Source of the DNA: a virus
IMG/VR virus record: IMGVR_UViG_3300042923_000607
Span: 52,240-116,239 of that record
DNA: 64,000 bases
Direction: 5' to 3' (one strand)
The notes beneath the pieces were generated by a model. That model was not told the DNA's origin, made no database searches, and worked only from the letters and a program-made list of their open reading frames with translations. The first letter of the stretch is position 1. Each line of letters begins with the position of its first letter. Both the position numbers and the translations under genes were made by a program. Below, in pieces: positions 6,940-34,743 of the stretch.

Positions 6940-6948
6940 GGATATATT

Positions 6949-6970: not shown

Positions 6971-6988
6971 TTATATTAAAGGAGTTTT

Positions 6989-7219: not shown

Positions 7220-7226
7220 GAGTCGT

Positions 7227-7451: not shown

Positions 7452-7491
7452 GCATATGTCCGTTACAAAATGGATGTATGCCTATTTTTTT
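7450..7491 (+). terminator. Rho-independent terminator
   Basis: AGGCATA/TATGCCT outer stem with an inner TCC/GGA pair, followed by ATTTTTTT. It closes the transcript of the two small genes after the tail tube. Confidence 0.8.
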
Positions 7492-7519
7492 ACAAATTAT
7501 AAATGAAAGAAGGGTTTAT

Positions 7520-7729: not shown

Positions 7730-7739
7730 AGGTGATTTA

Positions 7740-8075: not shown

Positions 8076-8097
8076 GTTTGATTTAAGGAGGATTAAC

Positions 8098-8277: not shown

Positions 8278-8751
8278 ATGGCTAAGAAAAGAACAAGGTC
8301 AAAATTTCATGTAGATATTACATCTAAAGGTATAGAAAAACGTACATATGAGGGAGAAACTTATGACAGTTTAACGGAAATGAGATTCCTTCAAGAGTGG
8401 ATTCTGCCAAAAATGGAAAGCGGAGAAATAGAAAAATGGGAAAGACAAATACCCTTTATTCTGCAAGAGGGATTCACAAGAAAAAATGGCAGCAAGGTTT
8501 TGCCTATAAAATATATAAGCGACTTCATTGTTTATTGGACTGATGGTACCCGTACTATTTTTGATGTTAAAGGTCAGCCGGATAATTTAAGCAAAACAAA
8601 AAGAAAAATTTTCTGGAAGAAATATCCTGACGAAGAATATGTGTGGATGTGTAGAAATATAAAATTTGGAGATGAGAGTCACTGGTTGACATACGAAGAG
8701 TTGGAGCAGAAAAGGAAAATGGAAAAGAAAAACAAGACCTCAAATAAGTAG
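8278..8751 (+). CDS. DUF1064-type PD-(D/E)xK nuclease-like protein
   Basis: A 157-aa protein starting right at the stop of the zinc-ribbon gene. It fits the phage DUF1064 family: S-L-T-E-M-R-F near residue 32, a W-E-R-Q-I-P-F strand, Y-I-S-D-F-I-V at about 84, and an F-D-V-K-G catalytic-like D-x-K at about 98. These acidic and Lys residues match a PD-(D/E)xK (Holliday junction resolvase-like) core. The C-terminus is Lys-rich. The stop codon lies in a terminator. Confidence 0.75.
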   Translation: MAKKRTRSKFHVDITSKGIEKRTYEGETYDSLTEMRFLQEWILPKMESGEIEKWERQIPFILQEGFTRKNGSKVLPIKYISDFIVYWTDGTRTIFDVKGQPDNLSKTKRKIFWKKYPDEEYVWMCRNIKFGDESHWLTYEELEQKRKMEKKNKTSNK

Positions 8752-8759
8752 GTCTTTTA
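8734..8759 (+). terminator. Rho-independent terminator
   Basis: AAGACCT/AGGTCTT stem followed by TTTATTT. It overlaps the end of the DUF1064 gene and separates the cargo genes from the tail genes that follow. Confidence 0.75.
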
Positions 8760-8783
8760 TTTAATCTAAAATGGAGGATTAGA

Positions 8784-9353
8784 ATGAAAACATCAAACAA
8801 CATTGAATTAAAAGATAAAGTATCTTTAGATGACAAGATTAAAATTATTAATACGGTAGTTAATTCATGCTTTTTAAATGGAGAATATACTCCTTATTAT
8901 AAGGATTATACCTTAAAAATGTGTTTTGGATTATATGTTTTAAGTGGAATAGAATTTGAAGAAAACGAAGATATTGCAGAATTAATAGAGGAAAAAAATG
9001 AACTATCTGAACTATGGAGAATGTGGAAAGACGATAGTTTTAGCTGGGAACTAACTCAAGACATCGATGACATTGTAGACTACAAAAAGAAACAATTGTT
9101 GAATGAAAACAATGAGATTAATAAATATTTGATTGACTTATTAAGGGAACAAGTTGAAACAGTAAAATTACAGAAAAAGGTTCTTGAGCAGGCCGATAAA
9201 ATTAATGGTCAGTATTCAAAGGAAGACATCATGAGAATAACTGAGGCTTCTGAGAAATTATCAGATAAATTAAAAGATATTGACGTTCAGAAAGGCTTAG
9301 TTCAAAGCATAAAGAAACCAACCGACCACAAAAGAGCTCAGAGGGCAAAGTAA
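8784..9353 (+). CDS. Probable tail assembly protein
   Basis: A 189-aa acidic, helical protein, ATG 8784 behind GGAGG. Residues 120-175 are a long charged helix. It is linked to the next gene by a one-base TAATG overlap. A helical acidic protein before the tape measure suggests a tail assembly chaperone, but I see no slippery site for the usual frameshift, so this stays tentative. Confidence 0.5.
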   Translation: MKTSNNIELKDKVSLDDKIKIINTVVNSCFLNGEYTPYYKDYTLKMCFGLYVLSGIEFEENEDIAELIEEKNELSELWRMWKDDSFSWELTQDIDDIVDYKKKQLLNENNEINKYLIDLLREQVETVKLQKKVLEQADKINGQYSKEDIMRITEASEKLSDKLKDIDVQKGLVQSIKKPTDHKRAQRAK

Positions 9354-9787
9354 TGACTACATATGGTAGAAACGCGAAAGACTTAGAAAAATACTTAAAG
9401 AATCTTGCGAAACAGGTTTGTGACTATGCTAGCAATGTTGTATATGAAGCGATTAATTACTATTTGAACCAATACTATTTAGAATTTGATCCCGTGTCAT
9501 ATCGTAGAACGGAACAATTATTAAGAAGTGCTTTTAAGACTAAATCTGTTTGGTCAGGAAGTGCATGGACTGCTGAAGTCGGTATTGATTATGAGTCTTT
9601 GGATTACAACGAAGCGACTGGTTACGATGTAATTTCCTATGCGAATCAAGGGTTGCATGGGGGTATAGACGTTGGTTCTGACACTCATGTATATGATGAT
9701 GCAATTAATAAAACAATCAGAAATGGACAATTGATTGAAGATATTATTAAATACATTCAAGATAAGGGTATAAGGGTAACAAGATAA
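9353..9787 (+). CDS. HK97 gp10-like neck/tail protein
   Basis: A 144-aa protein overlapping the previous stop by one base. It starts with a helical segment (A-K-D-L-E-K-Y-L), has a Y-R-R-T-E-x-L-L motif at about residue 46, and an aromatic, Gly-rich middle. This matches the general look of gp10-like head-tail joining or minor tail proteins. Ends 10 bp from the convergent XRE gene. Confidence 0.55.
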   Translation: MTTYGRNAKDLEKYLKNLAKQVCDYASNVVYEAINYYLNQYYLEFDPVSYRRTEQLLRSAFKTKSVWSGSAWTAEVGIDYESLDYNEATGYDVISYANQGLHGGIDVGSDTHVYDDAINKTIRNGQLIEDIIKYIQDKGIRVTR

Positions 9788-9797
9788 AAGCAGTATT

Positions 9798-10019
9798 TTA
9801 TATTGAATAATCCTCATTACTCTCCTCTTCTATTATCAACAACTCTTCAACTCCACAATTCAATATCTTGCATAATTTTTCTAGTATGTCAAATCTAATA
9901 CTTTGAGTTTTCCCGTTACATAAATTATGTAAGTTTTTATATGTGCAACCAGCCCCTTTCGCTACTATTGCCATATTAAGATTTTCTTCTTGAATTTTGT
10001 TTGCTATATTAATTATCAT
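9798..10019 (-). CDS. XRE-family (Cro/cI-type) transcriptional regulator
   Basis: A 73-aa DNA-binding protein read against the tail operon. ATG 10019 is chosen because a GGGGGC site lies about 9 bases upstream; a longer form from 10097 lacks one. It is a whole helix-turn-helix domain (helices about 2-12, 16-23, 27-35, 43-55) with the usual I-R-F-D-x-L-x-K-L-C-x-x-L motif near the end. A dyad-symmetric site and two promoters lie just upstream, so it probably represses its own gene and the divergent 109-aa gene. Not expected inside a late tail operon. Confidence 0.8.
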   Translation of the reverse strand: MIINIANKIQEENLNMAIVAKGAGCTYKNLHNLCNGKTQSIRFDILEKLCKILNCGVEELLIIEEESNEDYSI

Positions 10020-10127
10020 GTTTGAATTGCCCCCACAAAGAATATACCATAACTTACCATATTTGTCAATTTTTATGTAATATTTATTACCTAGCAAATA
10101 ACTCGGAATTGTATCATATAGAAAAAC

Positions 10128-10151
10128 AATTATGTCGATATCGACATAATT
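10128..10151. promoter_or_regulatory. 24-bp perfect palindrome, probable operator
   Basis: A fully symmetric 24-bp element with the central 12 bp GTCGATATCGAC. It lies between the XRE gene and a + strand promoter whose -35 starts 4 bp away. It is the obvious binding site for the XRE protein as a dimer; this is inferred from symmetry and place. Confidence 0.7.
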
Positions 10152-10154
10152 ATA

Positions 10155-10183
10155 TTGACAATTTATAGGGACTATAGTATGAT
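10155..10183 (+). promoter_or_regulatory. Sigma-70 type promoter
   Basis: TTGACA (10155-10160) and TATGAT (10178-10183) with 17 bp between. It lies 4 bp after the palindrome, so a repressor bound there would touch the -35 side. A GGGGGGAGG site followed by a 6-codon ORF at about 10221 lies downstream and may be a leader peptide. Confidence 0.75.
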
Positions 10184-10288
10184 ATTCCTAAGGAAAAAAT
10201 AGGGGGGAGGATTGCACATAATGTACATGATTATTTTGTAAACAATACACTATAAAACAAGTTTAATTAAATCTTAATCTTTGCAATA

Positions 10289-10317
10289 TTGACATTTATT
10301 GGAACAAGACCTATAAT
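10289..10317 (+). promoter_or_regulatory. Perfect-consensus sigma-70 promoter
   Basis: TTGACA (10289-10294), 17-bp spacer, TATAAT (10312-10317): full consensus in both boxes. The TTG of the -35 would be the first codon of the longest ORF here, so that long ORF start is not real. Start of transcription expected near 10324, ahead of the AGGAGGGG site of the 109-aa gene. Confidence 0.85.
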
Positions 10318-10363
10318 AAAAATTGTTAAAATTAAACAATTCACCCGATTGCGAGGAGGGGTT

Positions 10364-10693
10364 ATTACGGAAAATGAAAGAATTGGTTTTGACGAGCTAG
10401 AAGAAGATTTATTAATGTTAATTTTTTATCACGGCAAAGAAAAATTTAGGATCACTGAGGACTTGGTGAATACAGTTACATACACCGTAGAAGGCATTGG
10501 ATTTGAACAAGAAGATGATGAAGTCGTCGTAGGAAGCGATATGTATGATTATATGATATTAAAAAATACATTTTTGTCATGTTTCAATTTAATTCAAATT
10601 GTATGTATAACTCGTTATCGAGATGAAAATAGATTACCATGTTGCTATGAGTTACATGTGACAGAAGGGCATGTATCGATTGAAGTTCTATAA
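10364..10693 (+). CDS. Acidic protein controlled by the XRE island, unknown function
   Basis: A 109-aa protein if it starts at ATT 10364, just after GAGGAGGGG; no in-frame ATG, GTG or TTG is well placed, and the upstream TTG at 10289 is the -35 box of its promoter. The sequence is strongly acidic with clusters of Asp/Glu and three cysteines, and has no signal peptide. It stands between a consensus promoter and a double terminator, facing the XRE gene. An antirepressor, toxin or other lysogeny-linked role is possible but nothing identifies it. Confidence 0.55.
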   Translation: MTENERIGFDELEEDLLMLIFYHGKEKFRITEDLVNTVTYTVEGIGFEQEDDEVVVGSDMYDYMILKNTFLSCFNLIQIVCITRYRDENRLPCCYELHVTEGHVSIEVL

Positions 10694-10712
10694 AAAATAA
10701 ATAATAAAATTT

Positions 10713-10836: not shown

Positions 10837-13800
10837 ATGGATGATTTTAAAACCCTGTTGAGCGTTGCCTATAGTATAAAGCAAGCTCAGACTGAAACAA
10901 ATAAAGTAATAAAAGAGGTACAAAAAAACGCTAAAATACAGCTTGACTTGGATATTACAGATAAGGAAGCCAAGAAAGTAATAAATGAAACAAGAAAAGA
11001 TTATCAGAATTGGTGGAAAACTGCTTTATCTCAGGAGTCTAATTTGCAAAAGCAAAAAGATAACTTTAATAAAAAAAATCTTTCGGCTATAGATTTAGAG
11101 ATAAAAAAAAGAAAAGAACAGTCCACACAGTTTAGCAATCAAATAAAATCACAGATGTTGGAAGCTCAAAAACTTGCTAAAGCTCAACAATCGGCAATCT
11201 CCCTAAGCCAAGACAGAGATACTCTTAAAAACAGAATAAACTCTTATGTTAAAAATAATCCAGCTTTAAAGGAAATGTCTTCTGATTTTATTAAACTAAG
11301 AGATTCGGTTGAAGGATTAGATAAAGTGGGATTATCTTCTGCTAATAAAGAATTTAGATTACTACAGTCTTCTGCTGAATCTTTAGGGAAAACCGGAGAT
11401 ACTTATTTCAGTAAATTAGGAAAGAATGTTCAACAGTTTGTTGGTTTCTTGGGTTCCGCTACGGTAGTAATGACAGGAGTTAATGCTATTCGTAATATGA
11501 TTACCGAGGTTTATAATTTAGACCAAGCCTTGGTTGATTTGCAAATGGCTACTGGATACACTCACGAACAAGCAAAAGAACTTCTCAGCACATATATTGA
11601 TTTAGGAAAACAAATGGGTGCTACTGCAACTGAGGTTGCTGCCGCTGCCGGTGACTATCTTAGACAAGGTATGACAATAGCTGAAACAAACAAGTTAATA
11701 AAGGACTCCCTAGTACTTGCAAAGTTGGGCAATATTGATACGGCACAAGCAACTACTTACTTAACTACGGCAATGAAGGGCTATAAAGTTTCAGTCGAAG
11801 ACGTTATTGGGATTGTAGACAAACTGTCAGCAGTAGATTTAGAATCAGCTACGGATGCTGGAGGACTGGCAGAAGGCATGAGCGAAGTGGCCAATAATGC
11901 TAGAATTGCCGGAGTTGAGATGGATAAACTGTTGGGTTATCTTGCGGTAATTGGAGAAACGACAGGTGAATCCATGTCATCTGTTGGAGTTGGACTAAAC
12001 GCAATCTTCTCTCGTATGGGAAATATTAAGCTTGCCAGGCTCAAAGACTATCAGAATAATGGCGAAGATTTATCAAATGTTGAAACCGTTTTGAGTGGCT
12101 TGGGAATTAAACTAAGAGACTCTGTTGATCAGTTTAGAAATTTTGGCGATGTATTAGATGAAGTTGCCACTAAATGGGGATCATTCAGCGATGTAAGTCA
12201 AAGAGCTTTAGCTAGTGCGTTTGCGGGCACTAATCATATGGAAGAATTCCTTGTGCTTATGGAAAATTATGGTACAGCTCTTAATTATAGTGAGGTTGCA
12301 GCTAATTCAGCCGGAACTGCAATGCAGAAGTTTGGAGCATATCAGGAAAGTTTAGAAGCAAAAACAAAAAGGCTTAGTGCATCATTTCAAGATCTAGCAA
12401 ATGATACCATAGATAGTGGAATAGTCAAAGGATTTTTAGATTTATCAAACTTCTTAATTAACGTTACCGATAATATAGGACTGCTAAACATTGCACTTGT
12501 ATCACTAGCAGGAGTTATGGGAGCTAAAACAACCGCTGGAATAAATCTGTTTGCACAAGGATTACAAGGATTAGCTTCAAGAATGGGAGCAACTACTGCT
12601 CTAGCCGGAACAATGATGTCGGCATTAAGTATTGCACTCCCAGTAGCTGCGGTTTTAGTTGCGGTTGCAGCATACAATCATTTTAACGTTACATTAGAAG
12701 AAACCAGAGCTAACCTGGCAAAACAAAAAGACGCTTATGATTCTGAGGTTTCAAATGTTCAATCACTAACAAACGAATTGGAGTCAACAAGAAAAAAATT
12801 AGAAGAATTAAACAGTGTTGGCGGAGCTGTAGTTACTAAGGATGGAGAAAAAGAAAAACTTCAAGCCCAAACCGAAGAATTGCAACGACAATTAGATATT
12901 GCAAAAGAAACTCAAAGAATAGCCGGGTTAAAAGCAGAAAACACAGCAACGGAAGCTCTTAGTAAAAAGATTGAAAGCAAATACATTACTGGCAAAGTTA
13001 GTAATGATTATGCCGGATATGACGTAACATTTGATAAGGTCACAAGAGATGTCGAGTTAGAAAGAGCAATTAATGAATATAATAAACTGGCCAAGTCTTA
13101 TGAAGCGGTAGAAAAAAAACAACAGGATTTAGCAAATGCTCAAAAGGGAAATAGTAAAGAATTTAAAAACAATCAAAAAACTTTAGATTTATTAAACAAG
13201 TCAATGTCAAATGCCAGATCCTACGCCAATGAACTAGCAACTGGAATGCAAGAAGATTCTAATAGTTTGATAGGCGCTACAGTGGCCGGAGACAATCTAA
13301 AGAATGTGGTAGATAGATCTCTTAATAGTTATAGTTCATGGACTTCTTCAATCAGTAGTGCAAATGATGCGCTTGGAGATACTAGTGACATATCTTCAGA
13401 GGTGGTTTCTGGAATAGATTCCACGACTGCAAGCGTAGAGGATGCAAATAAGGCTATAGATGCGTTCCAGACTTCTATGTCTTCAATAAAAAATGCTCTC
13501 TCAGATGTATCTTCTCTTTCAACGAATGACATCATTGATTTAATGCAAGAATTTAAAGAATTTGATTGGAATTCATACGGGGTCACTGGAGTTGAGGGAG
13601 TTGGAGATTTAACTGGAGCATTAAAAACTTTAGCCAAGCAACAATATGATTCGATAACTTCAACCAATGGAAGTAGTGTAGCGTTTAGTAATCTATATCA
13701 AGATGCAATTAAAGTTAAAGATGGAATACAGGGAATCTCCTCTTCTATCTCTTCCCTTGATAATTTGAATAGTTCATTGTCGTCGTTGGATTCTGCATAT

Positions 13801-16506
13801 GCTAGTTTAATTTCCAAACAATCTGTTTCACTTGATGATATAACTAAATTAAACGAAGTATTTGGAAATACTGCAGGGTTTAATGATTTTATAAACACGG
13901 TATCTTCAGCAAAATCTGTTACTGGAGACGTACAAAACGCTTTTAACGACCTTGTTACCACTTATTTATATTCAAGCGATATATTAAACACATTGACAGA
14001 CGACACAAAAAGTCTGGTAATCACGCAACTACAGCACATAGGAGTTTCAAATGCTGAAGAAGTTGTAACCTCAAAACTAGCCGAGCAGAAAAAAATATTG
14101 GCGGAAACAGGATTAGATGTTAAGGACGCAACGGTTGAAGAAATAATAGAATTAATTAATGAGGGAAACGTTTCAGATGATACAAGAAATTCCCTATCTG
14201 GGTTAGCCGCTCAAAAGTTAAATGTTAACAATGTAGCGCTCAGTACTTCTGGAGATATCGCAAATCTTATCAGCCTTATGTCTATAACAAACTCAACCAC
14301 AGAAGCCTTACAAGCATTACAGATGGCAAAAGAGGGTAAAGTCCCTATGTCTATTGCTAGGCCTGGGGATATGGAATCCATGATTAGTAGAGCCCAAGCC
14401 GAGGTTGAGAGTTATTATAAAGGACTAGGGAATTCGCAAAATATTAAGTATACGGGTGGTTCAAAAACATCCTCTGTAAAAGATAAGGCCAGTAGTAAAA
14501 AAACTGAGTTTTCTCAACAGATTGACCAAATAGCAAGATCTGTTGAATTAGCGGAAAAAGCACTGTCTAGATTAAACGAAGCTATTGACGATGATGCTCC
14601 CTACAAAAAACAAATTACGAATTTACAAGCATTGATTAAAGGGCAAAAAGAACTGTTATCTACTTACAACAAATCCGCTACCGCCTATGAATCTCAATAT
14701 AATAAATCAATTTCTGGACTATCATCAAAATATGTAAAGCAAATTCAATCCGGTGGAACATTCAAAGTTCAAGACTTTAAAGGAGAATCCGGAGAAAAAT
14801 TATATAATCAGATAATTACAGCTCAGAAATATTGGGACGAATATCAAAACTCTCTTGATAAATCAAACAAAACTACTAAAGAAATTGTAGAAAACACAGA
14901 AAAACTTGCTAAAATAAAAATAGACCTAAAGCTTGATAAATTTGAAAAGCAAAAAGAAAAACTTTCCGGATTAGATGATGACATACAGAATGCCTTAGAT
15001 TTAGTTGAATCTGGAAGTAATGAATCAGTATTGCTCTTACAGGCTGGATATAAAAATGCGTCTGATTCGGTTGCTAACTTAAAGAAGGAAATTACGGCTT
15101 TAAACAAAGCATATGCCGGAAACAAGTCAGATGAAACATATAAAACAAGACTTGCTGACTTAGAGGAACAATTAAACTCGGCAGCTTCATCAATGAAAAG
15201 CTACAAAGACCAAATAATTGACGCAATGAAGCAAGGCTATGAAGAACAAACCGATAATTTAAAAGACGCCTTAGATGAACAGCTAGATGCAATAGAAAAA
15301 GCGCATGATGCCATAATTGATAGTCTCAATGATCAGTTAGACGCTTATAAAGAAATAATTGACGCCAAGAAAGAATCACTGAGAACAACGGAAGATGAAT
15401 ACCAGTATCAGAAGAAAATCGCAGAACAGACTAATAATATTAACAAAATTAATTCCAGAATAGCTGAACTATCAAAGGCTGCAAGCTCCGGTGATCGAGC
15501 TGCGGCTGCCGAAATGAAAAAGTTGCAAGACGAATTAGCCGAAGCACAATCATACTTGGACGACACTCAGCATGACAGAAAAATAGAACTTGAAGAAGAG
15601 GCTCTTGATAAAGCTTACGATGATTATGAAAAGTTAATTAACGGTCAGATAGATTTAGAAAATAAGGCTTATGAAATGCAGAAAACCATGGCACAAAAAG
15701 CTTATGATTCTAAACTAGCTAATCTGACAAGTTTATATACGACCGAGATGGATTACATAAAACAGGCAGCAGAATTAACAACATCTGCTTTTTCAGAAGC
15801 TTTTGCGGGAATCAATCAACAGTTGGCTCAATATGGTTTATCGATATCTTCTGATTTGTCTGGAGCATTATTTAACACAAATTCATCATTAAACACTTCT
15901 CTTTCAAGCGTATCAAAAACTTCATCGTCATCATCTTACGATCCTGTATTGAAATTGCTTAAAAACGGAACTGGAACTACAGGAAATAGTAATCTTAATA
16001 AATATATAAGCTCTAACTATGGATCATATCTTACATTTTCAGAGATGTTGCAATTGGCAAAACTCATGGGAGTATCAGGAATAAGCTCGCTAAAAGATGT
16101 TGAGGAAAGTGGGACTAACAGAAATAAAATATTAGATGCATTAAAATCCTCTGGTTATAAGAATGGTGGAATTTTAGGAGAAGTTAACAGTACTATTAAA
16201 GGAATGGGAGAAGATGCTTTATTTGTAGGAAGTAAAGGAGAATCTGTTTTAACAGAACCAGAAACAAAAGCCTATAGGATGACAGGCGGATATCTGGCAG
16301 AAATGGTTAATCTGCTTAAGGCCCACAATCTAAATCCAGCCAACTACTCTAATAACACAAACAACTCTCCTAATATTCAAATCGAAAGTCTGCTTACAGT
16401 TCAGGGAAATGTTAACAAAGATGTGGTCAATGATTTAAATGCTTCTATGAATTCACTAGTTGAAAAAGTTTCGGACGATATAATGAAAAAGATGCGTAAG
16501 TTCTAA
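10837..16506 (+). CDS. Tape measure protein
   Basis: An 1889-aa protein that sets tail length. Residues 1-200 are a Lys/Gln-rich coiled coil. Residues about 225-520 match the TP901-type tape measure domain, with a Gly/Ala-rich core around T-G-Y-T-H-E-Q-A-K-E-L and A-A-A-G-D-Y-L-R-Q-G-M. A hydrophobic Ala/Val segment (about 590-620) may enter the cell membrane during DNA entry. The rest is long coiled coil (650-900, 1250-1620) with Ser-rich linkers. The length implies a tail of roughly 280 nm by the usual 1.5 A per residue rule. It follows the sealed regulatory island and precedes the distal tail gene. Confidence 0.95.
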   Translation: MDDFKTLLSVAYSIKQAQTETNKVIKEVQKNAKIQLDLDITDKEAKKVINETRKDYQNWWKTALSQESNLQKQKDNFNKKNLSAIDLEIKKRKEQSTQFSNQIKSQMLEAQKLAKAQQSAISLSQDRDTLKNRINSYVKNNPALKEMSSDFIKLRDSVEGLDKVGLSSANKEFRLLQSSAESLGKTGDTYFSKLGKNVQQFVGFLGSATVVMTGVNAIRNMITEVYNLDQALVDLQMATGYTHEQAKELLSTYIDLGKQMGATATEVAAAAGDYLRQGMTIAETNKLIKDSLVLAKLGNIDTAQATTYLTTAMKGYKVSVEDVIGIVDKLSAVDLESATDAGGLAEGMSEVANNARIAGVEMDKLLGYLAVIGETTGESMSSVGVGLNAIFSRMGNIKLARLKDYQNNGEDLSNVETVLSGLGIKLRDSVDQFRNFGDVLDEVATKWGSFSDVSQRALASAFAGTNHMEEFLVLMENYGTALNYSEVAANSAGTAMQKFGAYQESLEAKTKRLSASFQDLANDTIDSGIVKGFLDLSNFLINVTDNIGLLNIALVSLAGVMGAKTTAGINLFAQGLQGLASRMGATTALAGTMMSALSIALPVAAVLVAVAAYNHFNVTLEETRANLAKQKDAYDSEVSNVQSLTNELESTRKKLEELNSVGGAVVTKDGEKEKLQAQTEELQRQLDIAKETQRIAGLKAENTATEALSKKIESKYITGKVSNDYAGYDVTFDKVTRDVELERAINEYNKLAKSYEAVEKKQQDLANAQKGNSKEFKNNQKTLDLLNKSMSNARSYANELATGMQEDSNSLIGATVAGDNLKNVVDRSLNSYSSWTSSISSANDALGDTSDISSEVVSGIDSTTASVEDANKAIDAFQTSMSSIKNALSDVSSLSTNDIIDLMQEFKEFDWNSYGVTGVEGVGDLTGALKTLAKQQYDSITSTNGSSVAFSNLYQDAIKVKDGIQGISSSISSLDNLNSSLSSLDSAYASLISKQSVSLDDITKLNEVFGNTAGFNDFINTVSSAKSVTGDVQNAFNDLVTTYLYSSDILNTLTDDTKSLVITQLQHIGVSNAEEVVTSKLAEQKKILAETGLDVKDATVEEIIELINEGNVSDDTRNSLSGLAAQKLNVNNVALSTSGDIANLISLMSITNSTTEALQALQMAKEGKVPMSIARPGDMESMISRAQAEVESYYKGLGNSQNIKYTGGSKTSSVKDKASSKKTEFSQQIDQIARSVELAEKALSRLNEAIDDDAPYKKQITNLQALIKGQKELLSTYNKSATAYESQYNKSISGLSSKYVKQIQSGGTFKVQDFKGESGEKLYNQIITAQKYWDEYQNSLDKSNKTTKEIVENTEKLAKIKIDLKLDKFEKQKEKLSGLDDDIQNALDLVESGSNESVLLLQAGYKNASDSVANLKKEITALNKAYAGNKSDETYKTRLADLEEQLNSAASSMKSYKDQIIDAMKQGYEEQTDNLKDALDEQLDAIEKAHDAIIDSLNDQLDAYKEIIDAKKESLRTTEDEYQYQKKIAEQTNNINKINSRIAELSKAASSGDRAAAAEMKKLQDELAEAQSYLDDTQHDRKIELEEEALDKAYDDYEKLINGQIDLENKAYEMQKTMAQKAYDSKLANLTSLYTTEMDYIKQAAELTTSAFSEAFAGINQQLAQYGLSISSDLSGALFNTNSSLNTSLSSVSKTSSSSSYDPVLKLLKNGTGTTGNSNLNKYISSNYGSYLTFSEMLQLAKLMGVSGISSLKDVEESGTNRNKILDALKSSGYKNGGILGEVNSTIKGMGEDALFVGSKGESVLTEPETKAYRMTGGYLAEMVNLLKAHNLNPANYSNNTNNSPNIQIESLLTVQGNVNKDVVNDLNASMNSLVEKVSDDIMKKMRKF

Positions 16507-16572: not shown

Positions 16573-17352
16573 ATGGCAACAATTAATGGGCTTAATTGTA
16601 TTTTTGCGAATCAGTCATCAGAAGAATTTGGAGTAAAGATGGGATTCATCGGAAGCAACAACCGAGATTCAAACGATGAACAATGGAATTTAGTACAAAC
16701 AAAAAATGTTGTTCAAGAAATTTTTAATTATCACGGTAAATACAGCAGCGAACCTTTACAGTTTAAGCTTACTTTTTTCAATGATGATGGAAGTTATATA
16801 GATGCTGACAAGCAAGAAGATTTGAAAAATTGGCTTATCCGAGATGATTTTTCTTGGTTAGTTGTAGACCAGGAAGACTTATGTGACAAAGAGTTTCGGT
16901 GTACAGGGTTAAGTGTTGGATTAGAAGATGTTGGACTGAGAAATGCTGGGTTAACGGTTCAAATGACGTGCGACTGTAATCATGCTTGGACAGGAATAAG
17001 AACTAAGCCCTACTCTTCTACCACTACCGCTTCCTATCAATTTATTAATCCAGCTAAATTTAATAAGTATATAGTGTATCCCCAGCTAACCATTACTCCC
17101 ACATCAAACGGAGACATCACGGTAAAGAATAACACAACAAATAGAACAATGTCGATTCTTAATTGTGTTACAACGGAGACTATCTATATTGATTGTAGAA
17201 ACGAAATAATTAAATCTTCTAATGGAAGAAATCTTTTGGACGATTTCAATAAATACTTTTTAGAATTAATACAAGGGAATAACTCTCTTACTCTTACAGG
17301 AGCATTCACAATGAAAATGGAATATCGTCTTCCTGTTCGTATAGGTGGATAA
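16573..17352 (+). CDS. Distal tail protein (Dit)
   Basis: A 259-aa protein, ATG 16573 behind AAAGGAAG. Length, beta-rich make-up, the N-terminal I-N-G-x-x-C-I-F start and the position between tape measure and Tal match Dit proteins, which form the hexameric hub at the tail tip. A galectin-like second half begins near residue 150. No extra carbohydrate-binding insert is visible. Confidence 0.8.
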   Translation: MATINGLNCIFANQSSEEFGVKMGFIGSNNRDSNDEQWNLVQTKNVVQEIFNYHGKYSSEPLQFKLTFFNDDGSYIDADKQEDLKNWLIRDDFSWLVVDQEDLCDKEFRCTGLSVGLEDVGLRNAGLTVQMTCDCNHAWTGIRTKPYSSTTTASYQFINPAKFNKYIVYPQLTITPTSNGDITVKNNTTNRTMSILNCVTTETIYIDCRNEIIKSSNGRNLLDDFNKYFLELIQGNNSLTLTGAFTMKMEYRLPVRIGG

Positions 17353-17371: not shown

Positions 17372-20365
17372 ATGCAACAGTCCTATAATGCAAATAATAG
17401 ATGGCAGCAACCAAGGTTATTTTTGGCTAACCCTCAAAAAACATATGTAAAAAATGGGGTTATTCCTTATGTAAAAGACTTAAATTTGTCTCTAAAATTC
17501 AATAATATAAAGGAGATGACTTTTAAGTTATATGAATATGAAGATGGGGTTAAAAACGAATTTTATGACCTTATTGAGCCTAATAGGCTTATTGAGCTTC
17601 AATATATAGACTGGTTTCAAATTGATGAACCACCGGAAACTTATTTGGATAATGACAAGATACCCTACAAAACAGTCAAGTGTCTATCAATGGAAAATCA
17701 ATTAGTAAGAAAAAGAATTGATGCAATTGATGGAGTATATTCTTTGTATGACGTTGCAAATCCTTCTTATAGTATCTTGCATATTGTTCACGCCTTATGC
17801 GGATGGAACATTGGACACGTTGACGCTGACCTGCTATCTCTGTATCGTACTTTTCAAGTAGACACTGATTTTATATATAATTTTCTTACTACAACCATTA
17901 GTCAATCATTTGACTGTATTTTTGTCTTTGACAATTATTCAAAAACCATATCTGCATACAAACTAGATAGTATTGAGAATTTAACAAATATAATTATTAG
18001 CGAAAAGAATTTATTAAATCAAGCAACCGTTGAAACCTACTCTAATCAGATCGTGACTAAATTACTAGTTAAAGGAAATGATACTTGCGATATAAGGGCG
18101 GTTAACCCCAACGGAACAAATTATTTAATAAATGTAGATTATTATTTGACGAAAATATCTGAAGGCGGTTGGATGTCAGATGGATTAGTTGATAATTGGA
18201 ACGCTTACAAAACTGCTTATGCTAGTGCTCAATCTACATGGATTTCATTGATAAATTCTTTAAAGACTAAAAACGGGGATTTGACGGTTTTAAAAGCTGA
18301 GTTAACAGATTTAAAGTCTGCTCAAACTGCTCAGAGTGACGTATACTCTTCTATCTTACAAAACAATAATGGTGTTGTGCCACCAGTTGGTTCTCCTGAT
18401 TATACAATATATATAGCGGCATGGAATTCATATAATTCATATTTTACATTAATTGCAAATAAGCAAGTCCAAATTAATAGTAAAGAAGTCGAAATAGCGT
18501 CAATTCAAGCATCACTAGATTCATTATCAAGTTCGTTAGATGAAAGCAATTATCTTACAACCAATCAAATTGCAGAATTGGAAACCTTTCTAATTGAAGG
18601 CGATTCATATCAAGACGATACCTTTGTAATAACTGATACAATGACCGAAACCGAAGCTATACAGATGAAACTTGAGCTTATGGACAACGGTTCTAAGCAA
18701 TTGGCAATGTACTCACATCCGCAGTATACATACAAAATATCTGCAAAAAATCTTTTCTCAATAATAGATAATCCTGAAAATGTCTGTAAATTTGAAGATT
18801 GGCGTGAAGATTTAGATGTTGGGAATATGGTTACTATAAAACTGAGAGCCGATTACTGGGTAACCACCAGGATAATGGAGATTGACATTGACTATAACAA
18901 TTTAGAAGAAATTCAGATTGTACTTAGTGACAAAACCAGAGAAGATACTAGAACCACTCAAATGGCAGCGTTGTTTGCGACAGCCGGAAGAACAAGTGCT
19001 GCTTTAAATCTTTACAAGTATGGATATAGTCAAGCAAGTGGTCAAGTTTCTGACGTTAGGACGTTTTTAAATAGCAGTTTAAATGCGACTCTGAATTCGG
19101 TAGTAAACAACGATAATCAAGACTTATTAATAGACACATACGGTTTGCATATGCGTAAGTGGCTACCAGATCAAAATAAGTACTCGGATTATCAAAGTTG
19201 GTGGCTAAATAACGTTCTGTTGTTTACAGACGACGGATTTCAATCTGCTACTACTGCTATCGGATTACTTACTGCTCCAGATGGGTCAAATTATTGGGGG
19301 TTAAATACCGAGGTATTGGTCGGATCTCTTATTATGGGAGAAAAGATGATTCTTACTAATTCATCTGGCAATTACACTTGGGACAATAATGGTATGGTTG
19401 CTACTGCTACAGTAGGATCAAACACGTATTTGGTTGGGATTAATCCAAGTACTCCTAGCAACATAATTAGGATAGCCGTTAATGGTAGTAACAAGTTTTA
19501 TATTGATACTATTACAAATAACTTAGTTTTTAGTGGAAACCTACAGGCCGCAGGGGGAACATTCTCTGGTGCTTTAAACGCTGCAACTGGAACTTTTAGT
19601 GGTAGTTTGTCCGCTGCGTCTGGTACCTTTACAGGAAATTTAGTGGCGGCCGGTGGTACTTTTACAGGAACATTACAGGGTGTAAATGGTACCTTTTCGG
19701 GCACCATTAGTGCGAGCACCATAAATAGTTCATCTCTAACTGGAGTAGATATAAAGGCAGTTTCTTTTGAAGTGCAAGGAACATCCTCGGCTAAGACATT
19801 TATTACAGGATTAGATGTTGATACTACGTATGTAAACTGCACAAATGTGTCATGTGACACTATAAATAATTCCACTCCTGTTACCTTTAGTAACGTAGCC
19901 GGTTCACATACTCACAACTCAAGTAATATCATAGCAACAGTTGTTAGCTCTAGTTATATAAATTTTAATGGGGGAAATGCGGCTGGATATCAATGGGTTA
20001 TAAATAACTTTGAACCAAAGTCATCGTCAGATAGAAGGTTGAAAAAAAATATTAATGACTTATCCCTATTGCCCATAGAAATATATTTAGAATTGAATCC
20101 GGTGCAATTTGAATTTATCGACGATCCATATAATAACGGTATTGTTTTTGGATTTATTGCTCAAGATGTGATTGATGTATTTGCTAAATATGGATACAAT
20201 GCATTGGATTATAATCTTGTTCAAAATGTTCCAATAAGAATGGATTCTGTTGATGAAAGTAAATACATAGAAGATGGGTTTAAGTATATAATTAACTATA
20301 CAAATATGATTTCATGGAACAAGTTAATTATCAAGAAGATGTGGGATAAAATACAATATTTATAA
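17372..20365 (+). CDS. Tail-associated protein (Tal) with S74 self-cleaving chaperone
   Basis: A 997-aa protein behind AAAGGAGG. Residues 1-380 resemble the prophage tail hub (gp27/Tal) domain. Residues about 300-420 include coiled coil. Residues about 725-785 hold at least five tandem copies of a ten-residue unit with G-T-F-x-G-x-L, likely a trimeric beta stem. The end (about 883-997) is a peptidase S74 intramolecular chaperone: S-S-D-R-R-L-K-K-N-I followed by Y-L-E-L-N-P-V-x-F and G-F-I-A-Q-D-V. In this family the chaperone trimerises the shaft and cuts itself off at the Ser. No lytic enzyme domain is evident. Confidence 0.85.
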   Translation: MQQSYNANNRWQQPRLFLANPQKTYVKNGVIPYVKDLNLSLKFNNIKEMTFKLYEYEDGVKNEFYDLIEPNRLIELQYIDWFQIDEPPETYLDNDKIPYKTVKCLSMENQLVRKRIDAIDGVYSLYDVANPSYSILHIVHALCGWNIGHVDADLLSLYRTFQVDTDFIYNFLTTTISQSFDCIFVFDNYSKTISAYKLDSIENLTNIIISEKNLLNQATVETYSNQIVTKLLVKGNDTCDIRAVNPNGTNYLINVDYYLTKISEGGWMSDGLVDNWNAYKTAYASAQSTWISLINSLKTKNGDLTVLKAELTDLKSAQTAQSDVYSSILQNNNGVVPPVGSPDYTIYIAAWNSYNSYFTLIANKQVQINSKEVEIASIQASLDSLSSSLDESNYLTTNQIAELETFLIEGDSYQDDTFVITDTMTETEAIQMKLELMDNGSKQLAMYSHPQYTYKISAKNLFSIIDNPENVCKFEDWREDLDVGNMVTIKLRADYWVTTRIMEIDIDYNNLEEIQIVLSDKTREDTRTTQMAALFATAGRTSAALNLYKYGYSQASGQVSDVRTFLNSSLNATLNSVVNNDNQDLLIDTYGLHMRKWLPDQNKYSDYQSWWLNNVLLFTDDGFQSATTAIGLLTAPDGSNYWGLNTEVLVGSLIMGEKMILTNSSGNYTWDNNGMVATATVGSNTYLVGINPSTPSNIIRIAVNGSNKFYIDTITNNLVFSGNLQAAGGTFSGALNAATGTFSGSLSAASGTFTGNLVAAGGTFTGTLQGVNGTFSGTISASTINSSSLTGVDIKAVSFEVQGTSSAKTFITGLDVDTTYVNCTNVSCDTINNSTPVTFSNVAGSHTHNSSNIIATVVSSSYINFNGGNAAGYQWVINNFEPKSSSDRRLKKNINDLSLLPIEIYLELNPVQFEFIDDPYNNGIVFGFIAQDVIDVFAKYGYNALDYNLVQNVPIRMDSVDESKYIEDGFKYIINYTNMISWNKLIIKKMWDKIQYL

Positions 20366-21714: not shown

Positions 21715-22368
21715 TTAATAATGGTATCTAATGGTGAATATTGGATCATTTTGATACATGAAGCTAACAATATTTCTACCAATATTATTAATTGGAGTGA
21801 TTAATTCTTCTATTTTTAATCCGTTAATATCAACACCTTCAGTGACGATTGGATCTACTTGAGAATTCAGAGGCATGATAATGGTCATTTGAACTTTACC
21901 ACCAACAGCAACCCCTAGGCCACTAAAAGGGAGTTGAACCTTGAAATCAAATATGTTAGTTGTATTAACCTGAGGAAATATTTTATAGTCATATGATAAT
22001 CTGTACATATTAGTAGTTCCGGTGATTGGCTCTAATGCTTGTTTTTTCATTAAAGACATCATCATTAATTTAGAAGTGTCTTCGAGAACGCCATCAAAAC
22101 TACCAGCTTTAGCTTGATCAATAACATCAGAGGTACCGGCTAATAATTCATCTTCTGACATTGGATACATTGACATATTTTTTGCATTAAAAATCATGTC
22201 AGCGATAGGATTGGATGTTACCCCATTTGGCACGTACCAAAATTTATCATGGGGGATTGGTTCGTCGGTTTGGATAATATTCTCCACGTGCACTAAATCG
22301 TATTGACCACCATTAGATTGAGAAACATTGTGAATCATTGCAGTCAAATCTTGTAATCTTACATTCAT
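21715..22368 (-). CDS. Opposite-strand accessory protein, unknown function
   Basis: A 217-aa soluble protein read against the tail operon. ATG 22368 lies 8 bases after AGAAGGGA. It has a mixed fold, a Met-rich central stretch (S-K-L-M-M-M-S-L-M) and a beta-rich C-terminal half, with no signal or membrane segment. It has a near-perfect promoter and shares a terminator with the opposite strand, so it is an independent unit likely expressed in the lysogen. I do not recognise the family. Confidence 0.7.
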   Translation of the reverse strand: MNVRLQDLTAMIHNVSQSNGGQYDLVHVENIIQTDEPIPHDKFWYVPNGVTSNPIADMIFNAKNMSMYPMSEDELLAGTSDVIDQAKAGSFDGVLEDTSKLMMMSLMKKQALEPITGTTNMYRLSYDYKIFPQVNTTNIFDFKVQLPFSGLGVAVGGKVQMTIIMPLNSQVDPIVTEGVDINGLKIEELITPINNIGRNIVSFMYQNDPIFTIRYHY

Positions 22369-22411: not shown

Positions 22412-22439
22412 ATTATACCATATTCAACAGATATGTCAA
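22412..22439 (-). promoter_or_regulatory. Strong promoter of the 217-aa gene
   Basis: On the - strand, TTGACA (22439-22434), 16-bp spacer ending in TGG, TATAAT (22417-22412): consensus boxes plus extended -10. It lies 44 bp before the ATG. Confidence 0.85.
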
Positions 22440-22751: not shown

Positions 22752-22780
22752 TTGACTTTATATGTATTTAATGCTAACAT
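22752..22780 (+). promoter_or_regulatory. Promoter of the type III antitoxin RNA
   Basis: TTGACT (22752-22757), 17-bp spacer ending in TGC (extended -10), TAACAT (22775-22780). Transcription should start near 22787 and run through two pseudoknots to the terminator at 22937. Confidence 0.65.
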
Positions 22781-22786
22781 ATAGAT

Positions 22787-22962
22787 GTAATAAATATTAA
22801 GATTATTTTAGGAGCAATCCTATTATAATATATGAGACATGGTTCAGGAGTGTCTGGCTAAAAATAACCTGAAAATATTGCGGGGGCTTTCTCGATGTCA
22901 CCCGGCTAATAAAAAATCGAAAAATTAGTTTTAAAGAGGAAGCTTTGGCTTCCTTTTTTACT
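22787..22962 (+). ncRNA. Probable type III antitoxin RNA, two pseudoknot repeats
   Basis: A roughly 175-nt transcript between a promoter and a terminator, directly before the toxin gene. Two units 46-47 nt apart each fit an H-type pseudoknot. Unit 1: stem 1 AGACA (22835-22839) with TGTCT (22851-22855), stem 2 TTCAGG (22843-22848) with CCTGAA (22868-22873). Unit 2: stem 1 CGGG (22881-22884) with CCCG (22901-22904), stem 2 TCGAT (22892-22896) with ATCGA (22916-22920). The stems differ in sequence but keep pairing, while the A-rich third loop is conserved (GGCTAA then W/A). In type III systems such repeats wrap and inhibit the toxin. A 29-codon ORF inside is probably chance. Confidence 0.65.
22937..22959 (+). 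terminator. Terminator between antitoxin RNA and toxin gene
   Basis: AGGAAGC/GCTTCCT stem with a four-base loop and six T. A terminator just before the toxin is the hallmark of type III loci; it sets a high RNA to toxin ratio. Confidence 0.85.
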
Positions 22963-22975
22963 GGGGAGAATAGTG

Positions 22976-23491
22976 ATGAAATACTGTTATATTGAAAAAT
23001 CATTTTATGATGACCATCCATGTTTAAAGAAAATTCTAGATCAATTTGATGAAGAAAAACGTGGGTATCGCACACATTTATGCTTGAATATTCAATATAA
23101 GGGAAATAATATACTCATTCCTCTCAGAAAAAACATGGGTTTAGCTGATCGAAAATTTGGAAATATTGGTCATCAAGTATCAAGTGAAAGCAAACCATTG
23201 GCTGGACTAGACTATAGATATATTATGATAATAAACGATATGAGATATCTAAGATTTGATACTCCACGAATACCTAATAAACAAGCCAGTATAATAGATA
23301 AAGATTTCTTAGAAATTGAGAGAGAAGCTATTGCGTATATTGAAGCATATATAAGAGTTGCAATAAAAAATCGTGCTGAAAGAAATGCTAGATTTCGAGA
23401 ATCAAGTCTTATAAATTTTCATAAAGAACTATTTTTTGTAGAAAGTGTTGAAGACATTGCAGTAACAGATGAATCAGAAACTAATACATAA
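22976..23491 (+). CDS. TenpN/ToxN-like type III toxin (endoribonuclease)
   Basis: A 171-aa protein. ATG 22976 is chosen because GGGGAG lies 7 bases upstream. The layout matches the TenpN/CptN/ToxN fold: N-terminal F-Y-D-D-H-P-C-L-K, the K-R-G-Y motif at 28-31, a strand ending in I-P-L-R-K-N (48-53), G-L-D-Y at 77-80, then a helical C-terminus. In ToxN the equivalent Lys and the Ser/Thr-rich strand after P-L form the active site for mRNA cleavage. It follows its RNA antitoxin and a terminator and ends in another terminator. Family by motif memory, strengthened by the locus layout. Expected roles: phage exclusion or lysogen maintenance. Confidence 0.7.
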   Translation: MKYCYIEKSFYDDHPCLKKILDQFDEEKRGYRTHLCLNIQYKGNNILIPLRKNMGLADRKFGNIGHQVSSESKPLAGLDYRYIMIINDMRYLRFDTPRIPNKQASIIDKDFLEIEREAIAYIEAYIRVAIKNRAERNARFRESSLINFHKELFFVESVEDIAVTDESETNT

Positions 23492-23499
23492 AACAAGAT

Positions 23500-23531
23500 A
23501 AGGCACCTGTAAAGAATACAGATGCCTTTCT
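23500..23531 (+). terminator. Terminator after toxin gene
   Basis: AAGGCA/TGCCTT outer stem and CTGT/ACAG inner stem followed by TTTCTT. Closes the toxin unit. Confidence 0.75.
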
Positions 23532-23580
23532 TATATAATTTCATTTTCCAAATACAACCAAACGTTCTATCTTCCATCTC

Positions 23581-23609: not shown

Positions 23610-23631
23610 ACCTAGGATGAGAGGAAGAGGA

Positions 23632-24258
23632 ATGAAGCAGGATATTATTGATGAAATTGACTCAACTTTAAAGTATATAAAGGGGGAACTTATTAGTTCA
23701 TTTAATGAAGAAGACGCTGATCTTTATATTAAATGGGCAAAAAAGAAAGTTTATGATACAATACAAAATGAAAAGGAATTTATAGTTAATCAAGAAATTA
23801 AATCTGTAAAGGCTAAAACTCCAATTGATTATAAACTTATAAAAACATTAAAGAAGAAAAAGAAAAAATACGAACATCAAAATTATAATCACGATCTAAA
23901 AATAGGTGACATTGTTCATGTGGACTATGGATTTGGATACTGTGGTGAATTATCAATAGGACATTATGGAATAATAATGTCAGAAATAAAAAACAATATG
24001 TATTTTATAGTTGCGCTATCTAGCGATCCTTTAAATAGTTTTCCATTTTATTTTGAAAATTTAAGTTTGCCAAATGCTGATTGTGATAAAAATAAAAAAT
24101 CGTATGTAAGGTTTGAACAATCTAGATTTCTACATTATAGAAGAATAGAAAATATTACTATTAATAATATGGTGATAGAAAAACACCTTGACGCTCCACA
24201 AATAGTAGAATTAAAAGAAAAATTCCTTGAATTTATGAAATTAACTGTTGACAAATAA
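23632..24258 (+). CDS. MazF/PemK-like protein with helical N-terminal extension
   Basis: A 208-aa protein. ATG 23632 is chosen for its AGAGGAAGAGG site; an upstream in-frame ATG overlaps it. Residues 1-85 are helical and very Lys-rich at 69-80. Residues about 88-200 look like the PemK/MazF barrel: K-I-G-D-I-V-H-V-D-Y-G, then G-E-L-S-I-G-H-Y-G-I-I-M, a F-I-V-A-L-S-S-D strand and V-R-F-E-Q-S-R-F. MazF enzymes are sequence-specific endoribonucleases. No antitoxin gene is adjacent, so the N-terminal part may serve in its place, or the protein may be a regulator using the same fold. Confidence 0.65.
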   Translation: MKQDIIDEIDSTLKYIKGELISSFNEEDADLYIKWAKKKVYDTIQNEKEFIVNQEIKSVKAKTPIDYKLIKTLKKKKKKYEHQNYNHDLKIGDIVHVDYGFGYCGELSIGHYGIIMSEIKNNMYFIVALSSDPLNSFPFYFENLSLPNADCDKNKKSYVRFEQSRFLHYRRIENITINNMVIEKHLDAPQIVELKEKFLEFMKLTVDK

Positions 24259-24991: not shown

Positions 24992-26077
24992 ATGGCTGAT
25001 TTGATTACTATTCCAGAGGGGTCAATCGTTTATGACATATCACTAGATTTACATGACCTAATTACTGGACAAGTGGTTAGAGCAAAACAGTACGATACTA
25101 GAACAAGATATATACGAGCAACAATTTTTAACGATGGAGACTTATATCCTATTACTCCAGACAAATTAATATCTTTTTCAGCTACAAAGCCAGATGGGTA
25201 TGGAATTGATAACTCAGCCGGAATAGACGCTGATGGAAAAATAATTTACATGATTACAGATCAAACTACCGCAAAAGACGGAGTTTTTGATGCTGAATTT
25301 AGGATATATGATACAGAAACTATCTCTGGGATAACTTATTCTAGAAGAAAAACATCGTTTAGTTTTAAAATGTCAGTTGTAAAATCGGCACTAAATGATG
25401 CTACTGTAATTAGTTCTTACGAATTTAATCAATTGACAGAACTCATGGGAACAGTTGGAGATATTGTAACAGACGGAACTGCCTTAATTTTGGAAATGCA
25501 AGTCCTCATAGAAACGGGAAATACGTTGATAAATTCTATGACGGAATTAGAAACAACAGTTGAATCAAACGAAGAGATACGAATCGAAAATGAAGACGCC
25601 AGATATAAACAGTTCTACGTTACTCAGGCTCAATATAATACACTACCACAAGAAGACAAAGATAACCCAAAATATGTTTATGAAATTACGGATAATCCAG
25701 ATGCTACACTTATTGCTACTTTGACCGATCTTTTAAATCAAATTAATATTGCTTTAGCTGCGGTTGAAGAATCCACCGTTGACATTAACAATATAAACGA
25801 TTTAATAGTCACAACAATTCAGACGTGGTCTAGTTCTAAAATTGTATCTAGAATTAGAAATTTTAAATATACTGCATCTTCCACGGTATCAAGCATAACT
25901 CACGGGCTAGATTATAACTCAACAACTGACGATCTTCAAGTTTATTATAATGGGTTGTTGTTAGAGGAAGGGGTTAATTTTACCAATTCAACAGACTTTC
26001 ACACAATAAACCTTACTTCTTGGACTGTATCTAGTGGAGACAGGGTTTACTTTAAGTTATACAAATACGTTAAGTAA
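24992..26077 (+). CDS. Baseplate upper protein (BppU-type)
   Basis: A 361-aa protein behind GGAGG. Residues 1-140 match the BppU N-terminal domain seen in Firmicute siphophages (opening I-P-E-G-S-I-V-Y-D-I-S-L-D-L, with I-R-A-T-I-F and S-R-R-K-T-S-F-S-F). Residues about 150-200 form a coiled coil, and the last 90 residues are a small beta module of the fibre-tip type. BppU anchors receptor-binding proteins to the tail hub, which fits the two spike genes that follow. Confidence 0.8.
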   Translation: MADLITIPEGSIVYDISLDLHDLITGQVVRAKQYDTRTRYIRATIFNDGDLYPITPDKLISFSATKPDGYGIDNSAGIDADGKIIYMITDQTTAKDGVFDAEFRIYDTETISGITYSRRKTSFSFKMSVVKSALNDATVISSYEFNQLTELMGTVGDIVTDGTALILEMQVLIETGNTLINSMTELETTVESNEEIRIENEDARYKQFYVTQAQYNTLPQEDKDNPKYVYEITDNPDATLIATLTDLLNQINIALAAVEESTVDINNINDLIVTTIQTWSSSKIVSRIRNFKYTASSTVSSITHGLDYNSTTDDLQVYYNGLLLEEGVNFTNSTDFHTINLTSWTVSSGDRVYFKLYKYVK

Positions 26078-33464: not shown

Positions 33465-34715
33465 TTAGTGAACATTACTGTCCCTTTTTAACTCTTCTTC
33501 ATTTATTTTATTCATTTTGTTTAGTACATCTTTAGCATTAATTCCCATCTTTTTTATATATCCAATATAAGTGTCCATAGTAAGTGAAACGCTAGCATGT
33601 CCCATTAGAACTGATATTGTTTTAATATCTACCCCATTCAATAGAAGCATTAATCCATACGCTTTTCTAATTGAATGTATTCCACATTTATTAACTTTAC
33701 AGTTAGCTCTAACTTGCATTGCATTTAAGGTTCTTGTTATGTTTCTCTCAGACTTTGGTTTACCATCTGTACCTAATAAAACTTTATCCGTAGGATTATG
33801 ATTTGGATTAGATTTTTCTAACTCTTTAAGTGCTATAAGTGCTCTTTCAGGAAGGGGGATTGTACGGTAACTATTTTTTGTTTTTGGAGTTTTAATTTCT
33901 TTAATAACATGAGCTACTCCATTCTCATTTTTTTCTACGGATGCAGCTGCTCTTCTTATAATAATTTCTTGTTTTTCATATGATATATCTTGCCACTCTA
34001 ATGCTAAAAGCTCACCTATTCTAATTCCAGTATAAGCAACTAATACTATAGCATAAGCATTATCACCATAAACTCGTGTGCCCTCTTTTCCAGTAAAACA
34101 GAATCCTGCAACATTTAATCGTCCAGCCTCTTTAAATAATAGGTCAACGTCTTCAGGTTCTGGAATCACATATTCTTTCTTTTTATTTGATACGTTTGAT
34201 TCGCTTGGCATTTTTACAATAGTCATAGGATTTCTTAATATATCTCTTTTAGTTAATGCATAATCAAAGCAAAGATTGTATAAAAAGTATGCTTTACTAA
34301 CAGTACTTCTAGCATATTTAGATGCCAGTATATTTATGTGCTTTTGAATTACATCGGAATCTAATGCTGCCATTTGCATATTTATTGGATCATAACCCTT
34401 AATTTGATTTTCATATGTTTTCTTGTTAGTTAAATAACTAGATTTTTCTACCTCATTTATCCTGACGTTATAGAGCCAGTCTTCAATATAAGTTTGAAGT
34501 GTTTGCTTTTTTATTTCTTTGCTTGTTAAATAGTGGTTACTAGATTCAAAGTTCTTAATTTTTTCTTTAACTTCTCGCTGAGTTAAACCATAGAAATCTT
34601 TATATCTACCATTATACTTTTTTCGAAAATGGAAATACTCGATATCTTTGATTGTTTTCTTTCCCCAAGATCCTTCGCCTTTTGGCCGTCTCTTTTTACT
34701 AGCAGAACTATCCAT
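33465..34715 (-). CDS. int: Tyrosine site-specific integrase
   Basis: A 416-aa recombinase. The second ATG (34715) is used because AAGGAG lies 6 bases upstream; the first overlaps that site. An N-terminal arm-binding AP2-like part (about 10-60) and SAM-like core (65-160) precede the catalytic domain: R232 in Y-T-G-I-R-I-G-E, H347 and R350 in H-S-I-R, H373 in M-G-H-A-S and the nucleophile Y383. It adjoins the attachment region and excisionase, the classic temperate phage block. Confidence 0.95.
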   Translation of the reverse strand: MDSSASKKRRPKGEGSWGKKTIKDIEYFHFRKKYNGRYKDFYGLTQREVKEKIKNFESSNHYLTSKEIKKQTLQTYIEDWLYNVRINEVEKSSYLTNKKTYENQIKGYDPINMQMAALDSDVIQKHINILASKYARSTVSKAYFLYNLCFDYALTKRDILRNPMTIVKMPSESNVSNKKKEYVIPEPEDVDLLFKEAGRLNVAGFCFTGKEGTRVYGDNAYAIVLVAYTGIRIGELLALEWQDISYEKQEIIIRRAAASVEKNENGVAHVIKEIKTPKTKNSYRTIPLPERALIALKELEKSNPNHNPTDKVLLGTDGKPKSERNITRTLNAMQVRANCKVNKCGIHSIRKAYGLMLLLNGVDIKTISVLMGHASVSLTMDTYIGYIKKMGINAKDVLNKMNKINEEELKRDSNVH

Positions 34716-34743
34716 AAACATCTCCTTTAATATAATAAAATTG

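Follow-up and report, generated by a model that had tools for sequence, protein, structure and literature searches.

Type III toxin-antitoxin loci consist of RNA repeats, a terminator and an RNase toxin, and about two repeats are typical of TenpIN and CptIN (PMC5086642, PMC12373285). The stretch of DNA analysed here (the window; 64,000 nucleotides (nt), part of the 116,239-bp virus record IMGVR_UViG_3300042923_000607) carries, among phage tail genes, a leader with two pseudoknots of different sequence, a terminator and a gene for a 171-aa protein. A preliminary description had read these as a probable type III locus of unusual layout. Is this locus a type III system, and what do two unlike antitoxin units mean for it? 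We conclude that it is very likely a type III toxin-antitoxin. By homology and layout it is TenpIN-like, and we are confident in proposing it, as a mechanism, to be a divergent, phage-associated branch of TenpIN in which an RNA antitoxin holds an RNase toxin. This reading is supported by the anatomy of the locus, the homology, the covariation, the conservation of the unlike pair and the location in phage tails. What is new here is the mismatch of the antidote units and the repeated lodging of the module in phage tail genes.

The toxin and its relatives

The toxin gene, which like all features of the locus lies on the forward strand, occupies 22976-23491. As had been described, its ATG at 22976 is preceded by a GGGGAG Shine-Dalgarno sequence (22963-22968), and the open reading frame encodes 171 residues (22976-23488). 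We observed that the protein matched the NCBIfam TenpIN type III toxin model (E 4.3e-19, residues 7-152, 69.1 bits); it also matched the unnamed PHROG phrog_8049. When the toxin family was compared with canonical TenpN using hhalign, the match was at 99.9% (E 6e-35), and these two comparisons establish homology to TenpN along the length of the protein. A profile of 18 family members retrieved from the PDB only CptN (4rmo, E 0.067) and ToxN (4ato, E 0.5), both weakly, with both alignments covering the P-L-x-x motif. An Abi_2 domain was not found in the Pfam search.

The structure of the toxin was predicted with AlphaFold. A first model from five close sequences was too poor (predicted local distance difference test, pLDDT, 48) and was superseded by one with a seven-sequence input (pLDDT 73, predicted template modelling score 0.70). 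In a fold search covering 350,542 chains, the best PDB folds were ToxN of Pectobacterium (2xd0, probability 1.00, E 2.3e-3) and ToxN of E. coli (7d8o, 0.99), followed by MazF structures and then Bacillus ToxN 4ato; a BFVD fold search gave no meaningful match. The model suggests that the toxin has a ToxN/MazF fold.

Scans of viral and genome collections with a single protein gave no relatives; these came from alignment-based scans. Eight further loci showed the same order of leader, repeat 1 (R1), repeat 2 (R2), terminator and toxin. They are three IMG/VR contigs (L004, L040, L067), Lachnospiraceae, Butyrivibrio and Clostridiales metagenome-assembled genomes (L005, L006, L007), another genome of that same family (L028) and L002 (MT835727.1, filed in GenBank as 'Bacteriophage sp.'). 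Their toxins are 54-65% identical in protein to that of the window and score 63-68 bits on the NCBIfam TenpIN model. In the toxin tree the clade grouped with L026 (support 100/98), and these together with Bacillus subtilis plasmid pBS72 (100/99), apart from canonical Lachnospiraceae TenpN. For six relatives we measured DNA identity to the window: it was 90-98% over the 93-nt double repeat, 66-71% over the toxin gene and 55-63% over the 110 nt upstream. The clade keeps two unlike pseudoknots nearly unchanged while the toxin drifts. As a separate observation, one Clostridiales genome (G004; C11, C46) carries three TenpN-type toxins (L010, L007, L055), two of them canonical and one of the window clade.

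The antitoxin RNA and its signals

Two H-type pseudoknots lie end to end in the leader, R1 at 22834-22879 and R2 at 22880-22926. In R1, stem 1 pairs 22835-22839 with 22851-22855 (AGACA/TGTCT), with an additional U22840-G22850 pair; stem 2 pairs 22844-22848 with 22868-22872, and an A-rich loop spans 22856-22867. The R1 stems are present as previously described (AGACA/TGTCT and TTCAGG/CCTGAA), except that the outermost T-A pair of the second, 22843-22873, is unconserved, being broken in half of the relatives. In R2, which also has an A-rich loop, stem 2 is the expected TCGAT/ATCGA (22892-22896/22916-22920). The CGGG/CCCG stem proposed earlier is, however, one register off and breaks in relatives; the conserved register pairs GGG (22883-22885) with CCC (22901-22903), where pair 22883-22903 is A-U in some relatives and G-C in others. 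The loop motif GGCTAA, followed by an A-rich run, is conserved and common to R1 and R2.

We further evaluated this structure against shuffled sequences and across relatives. In the window itself, two adjacent pseudoknots of this quality occurred in 0/300 dinucleotide shuffles. Across eight clade RNAs, 97.5% of the cells of the 20-pair structure were paired, against at most 47% for slid partners. Both partners had changed in five of the 20 pairs, of which two belong to R1 stem 1; the others are the first pair of R2 stem 1 and the second and fourth of R2 stem 2. The covariation score was 0.179 versus 0.080 in shuffles (0/500). When single R2-type units including those of near outgroups were taken, 99% were paired and the score rose to 0.326 versus 0.137 (0/500). 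L040 alone swaps TCGAT/ATCGA for TTGCT/AGCAA with all pairs preserved. The Rfam scan of the locus, at gathering and at relaxed thresholds, returned no type III antitoxin and no other convincing family.

The covariation looked for in homologous loci was thus seen in both pseudoknots, and the profile comparison with type III toxin models gave the TenpIN match and a predicted ToxN-like fold; neither a lack of toxin profile matches nor a lack of covariation was encountered. Three general type III features are found: tandem pseudoknots directly 5' of the toxin, a Rho-independent terminator between them and a ToxN/MazF fold in the predicted model. An unrelated open reading frame that follows the leader of a tail gene, riboswitch-like or an attenuator, could also sit in a tail operon, as this locus does. 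Such a chance arrangement is extremely improbable, being refuted by the homologous loci: it does not account for the homology, the fold, the covariation or the pairing of RNA and toxin repeated at unrelated genomic sites.

The signals around the RNA were borne out to different degrees. The intrinsic terminator between antitoxin RNA and toxin (22934-22960; -12.9 kcal/mol, z -3.0), whose stem is conserved in relatives, and the terminator 3' of the toxin (23497-23533; -13.6 kcal/mol, z -5.4) both agree with the preliminary description; the first is expected to be leaky. The putative promoter is indeed present as TTGACT (22752-22757), 17 bp and TAACAT (22775-22780), with TG before the -10 box, but it is a weak match by itself: promoter-like matches in this AT-rich region barely exceed chance (26 found versus 18.1 +/- 4.0 in shuffles). 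Relatives carry a clear TATAATATAA box 5' of the antitoxin RNA, and the promoter call in the window rests mainly on them. The -10 box of the window lies about 20 nt farther from the leader hairpin than the boxes of the relatives.

This 5' leader hairpin (UAGGA-GCAA-UCCUA, 22809-22822) was absent from the preliminary description. It is individually weak in the window (p=0.41), and the evidence for it is its recurrence across loci. A hairpin of 5-9 bp and variable sequence, close 3' of the -10 box and 5' of R1, was seen in most canonical and near TenpIN loci, and may be a general element of the 5' leader in TenpI RNAs.

Several observations weigh against the reading of the locus as a TenpIN-like type III module. 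The toxin scores under the NCBIfam equivalog cut-off (69.1 versus 90 bits). It had no match in Pfam or PADLOC, and a single-sequence phmmer search of the PDB was likewise empty, so that a ToxN family sequence match was obtained from none of the three. The Foldseek similarities are modest (E-values above 1e-3, TM-scores of about 0.47), the independent compensatory events that can be counted among eight related RNAs are only a few, and the expression, toxicity and cleavage that the reading implies are inferences. Lastly, the toxin has an R-K-N motif, versus R-S or R-T in many TenpN, S-S in CptN and T-S in ToxN.

This last point could indicate a degenerate toxin, since the R-K found in place of R-S/T is specific to the clade and lies in the motif that aligns with the active site of CptN and ToxN. 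The protein would then no longer cut RNA, and the module would persist as an RNA or toxin decoy (an anti-defence antitoxin RNA); phage pseudo-ToxI RNAs are known to aid escape from ToxIN (PMC5086642). We consider this improbable, as the toxin frame is intact in 9/9 loci with terminator and Shine-Dalgarno sequence retained, and R32, P49, R51, D79 and Y125 are invariant in the 18-sequence family alignment. Residue 52 is K, N, S or E among near relatives and, being variable, is probably not essential; a dead active site was considered and not concluded.

Two unlike antitoxin units

We compared the repeats within loci. Window R1 and R2 share 31 identities in 50 columns (62%), whereas in canonical TenpIN loci of the same bacterial family the repeats are 81-100% alike (39-48 of 48 columns), and in the nearest outgroups (L065, L060, L058, L026, L044) 79-91%. 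The near-identical tandem repeats that characterize TenpIN are not found in the window locus. For this reason, together with the toxin score under the curated equivalog cut-off, we do not regard it as a plain TenpIN member. The strongly diverged repeats had been presented as what would be a new layout. Their divergence is real, and the unlike pair is kept in 9/9 loci. However, it is the extreme of a trend within TenpIN, because moderate divergence (79-88%) with covarying stems was also seen elsewhere (L014, L018, L023, L026, L044, L058).

The nearest outgroups carry two near-identical repeats of the R2 kind. L065 and L059 have near-identical repeats, and R2 is of their type. R1 is thus the changed unit, and we conclude from these sequence comparisons that R1 was remodelled in the window clade. 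Its altered features are a longer stem 1 (five Watson-Crick pairs plus the G-U) and a short loop 1, and its geometry is near that of canonical TenpI units, e.g. L013. R1 evolves as slowly as R2.

Based on these features, we propose the following mechanism. The promoter would drive a short RNA containing the hairpin first and then the two pseudoknots. Most transcripts would end at the terminator, giving an excess of antitoxin RNA, and read-through would provide some toxin mRNA. The toxin, a predicted ToxN/MazF-fold endoribonuclease, would be kept inactive by the pseudoknots, which by analogy it probably frees by cutting the A/U-rich linkers GAAAAUAUU and GAAAAAUU; these linkers are compatible with cutting into single repeats. 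The inhibited closed complex would hold both RNAs, for example with one R1 and one R2 closing a pair of toxins. RNA excess, linker cutting and a closed complex are proposed because they belong to established type III biology (PMC5086642, PMC4627078), and the mixed complex because all nine loci retain both units, which differ in sequence as well as in geometry. The new step, a need of the complex for both unlike RNAs, is likewise proposed from their conservation. The prophage would use the module as a moron with its own promoter during lysogeny. If infection by another phage halted transcription, or the prophage was lost, the toxin would be freed, leading to abortive infection or stabilisation. 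Toxicity, RNA cleavage, the mixed complex and the anti-phage or maintenance role are what we infer.

The same conservation may be explained if the two pseudoknots stay unprocessed, as one linked tandem RNA in which R1 and R2 differ because each has its own fixed place on a toxin dimer. There are exactly two units, always together and in fixed order and spacing, every unit is conserved at its own position in nine loci, and an unprocessed antitoxin RNA with two motifs has been described (PMC12373285). Action as one linked tandem RNA has been proposed for RCd22, the two-motif RNA of the AbiF system in C. difficile. On the other hand, the A/U-rich linkers with poly-A look like the A-rich sequences at which ToxN/AbiQ type toxins cut (PMC5086642), and the toxin is homologous to ToxN/TenpN and not to Abi_2 (no Pfam match). 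We regard this explanation as possible but doubtful.

It is unlikely that only one repeat is the true antitoxin, with the other retained for a different role, for instance in folding of the leader, in controlling read-through at the terminator or in autoregulation of the toxin. A single CptI repeat does suffice to neutralise CptN (PMC4627078), and at least one canonical-type locus (L012) has a single repeat. However, R1 and R2 share their loop motif, both covary, and the rate of change of R1 is no higher.

The type III systems of the cited literature have antitoxins built as arrays of like repeats. The clade makes it possible to test directly whether a type III complex may be heterotypic, and what the reason is for having two repeats at all, and relatives with near-identical repeats (L065, L059) provide a natural before-and-after series.

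Recurrence in phage tail genes

The window phage is a temperate phage of gut or rumen; its integrase (33465-34721) identifies it as temperate. A scan with its Dit protein for relatives of the phage gave none. The tail operon setting of the locus was confirmed by PHROG and Pfam matches on either side. The module lies 3' of the tape measure (10837-16506) and Dit (16573-17352) genes. It has a gene for a minor tail protein (17372-20365) on one side and a BppU-type tail gene (24992-26077) on the other. This location had been called unusual, which needs qualification, as it recurs in four of the eight relatives, on virus or prophage-like contigs and again in tail regions. Chromosomal neighbours were seen for L002, L006 and, by near-identity to L006, L007. 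L002 was not counted as a phage copy because its flanks hold pyrimidine and other housekeeping genes; it is probably a bacterial contig filed as phage.

In L005 the module immediately precedes the tape-measure gene. In L004 (1926-4000) it sits between tape-measure pieces, and in L040 (IMGVR_UViG_2531839014_000003, 3005-10700) within a 7.7-kb stretch that splits the gene; both interruptions fall at about one point, residues 564-565 of the window tape measure. The L040 insertion also carries a KwaB (Kiwa)-like gene, a KwaA-like membrane open reading frame, an S24 repressor-like gene and an AAA_15 ATPase, and is possibly a defence cargo site within a tail gene. In L067 (IMGVR_UViG_2854395284_000001, 4248-5636) the module lies between two pieces of the C-terminal part of the tape-measure gene, and the reading frame of that gene, followed to about 4247, can be picked up again at about 5637 beyond the element. 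Rfam gave two group I intron matches there, both below the gathering score: one at 5380-5588 (E 2.8e-6), whose 3' end is the convincing part, and one at 4237-4569 (E 0.05). The L067 module sits within an element that resembles a group I intron. For L004 and L040 Rfam gave no support for an intron, nothing points to one in the window locus, and in the literature searched we found no report of a toxin-antitoxin within a group I intron.

The tail-region recurrence, the Kiwa-like and AAA-ATPase neighbours in L040 and the intron-like element of L067 point to the region of the tape-measure gene as a place where defence genes are carried as cargo. Tentatively, we suggest a heterotypic two-part antitoxin, with both pseudoknots of different geometry jointly required in a mixed complex, whose module spreads among temperate phages via tail-gene insertions, including, in L067, a group I intron of the tape-measure gene that would be coupled to a toxin-antitoxin.

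Known systems and neighbouring genes

The locus resembles TenpIN (NCBIfam NF047358; Photorhabdus type locus) in end-to-end toxin homology, two 5' pseudoknot repeats of about 45-50 nt, the terminator between RNA and toxin, and the leader hairpin. It differs in that the toxin shares about 22% identity with canonical Lachnospiraceae TenpN and scores below the equivalog cut-off, R2 has a 3-bp stem 1 and a 6-nt loop 1, R1 and R2 are strongly unlike, and the clade is often in phage tail regions. Intermediates (L026, L044, L057, L058-L060, L065) are the closest outgroups of the window toxin and of R2 (AGG[..]TCGG[..]CCT[GGCTAATAAAAA]CCGA), but their own repeats are 79-91% alike where compared and their R1 is not remodelled. 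ToxIN/AbiQ and CptIN share the fold, the locus layout, H-type pseudoknots and the active-site motif region, whereas single-sequence similarity is not significant and their arrays are described as repeats of one unit; ToxI repeats, at 34-36 nt, also differ from those of the window. AbiF with its RCd22 RNA is likewise prophage-borne, with two RNA motifs of unequal length and a toxin 3' of them, but its toxin (Abi_2, Cas13-like) and RNA motifs are unrelated and it is located in a lysis module.

A separate TenpN-like subfamily of about 150 aa was also seen (L031, L032, L034, L035; FAVPIRSN...HYIKMFPVT...YLIRYRTEGN). Its upstream RNA is conserved and covarying, with 10/28 pairs changed on both sides in four sequences, and has no tandem repeat; this may be a type III system with a single-unit antitoxin.

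Two further open reading frames lie near the module in the window. Directly 3' of it, a 213-aa frame (23617-24258) has a weak MazF-like PHROG match (E 1e-5). On the reverse strand inside the tail operon, a 217-aa frame of unknown family (21715-22368) is another moron, with a perfect TTGACA-16-TATAAT promoter (22412-22439; 12/12 with TG).
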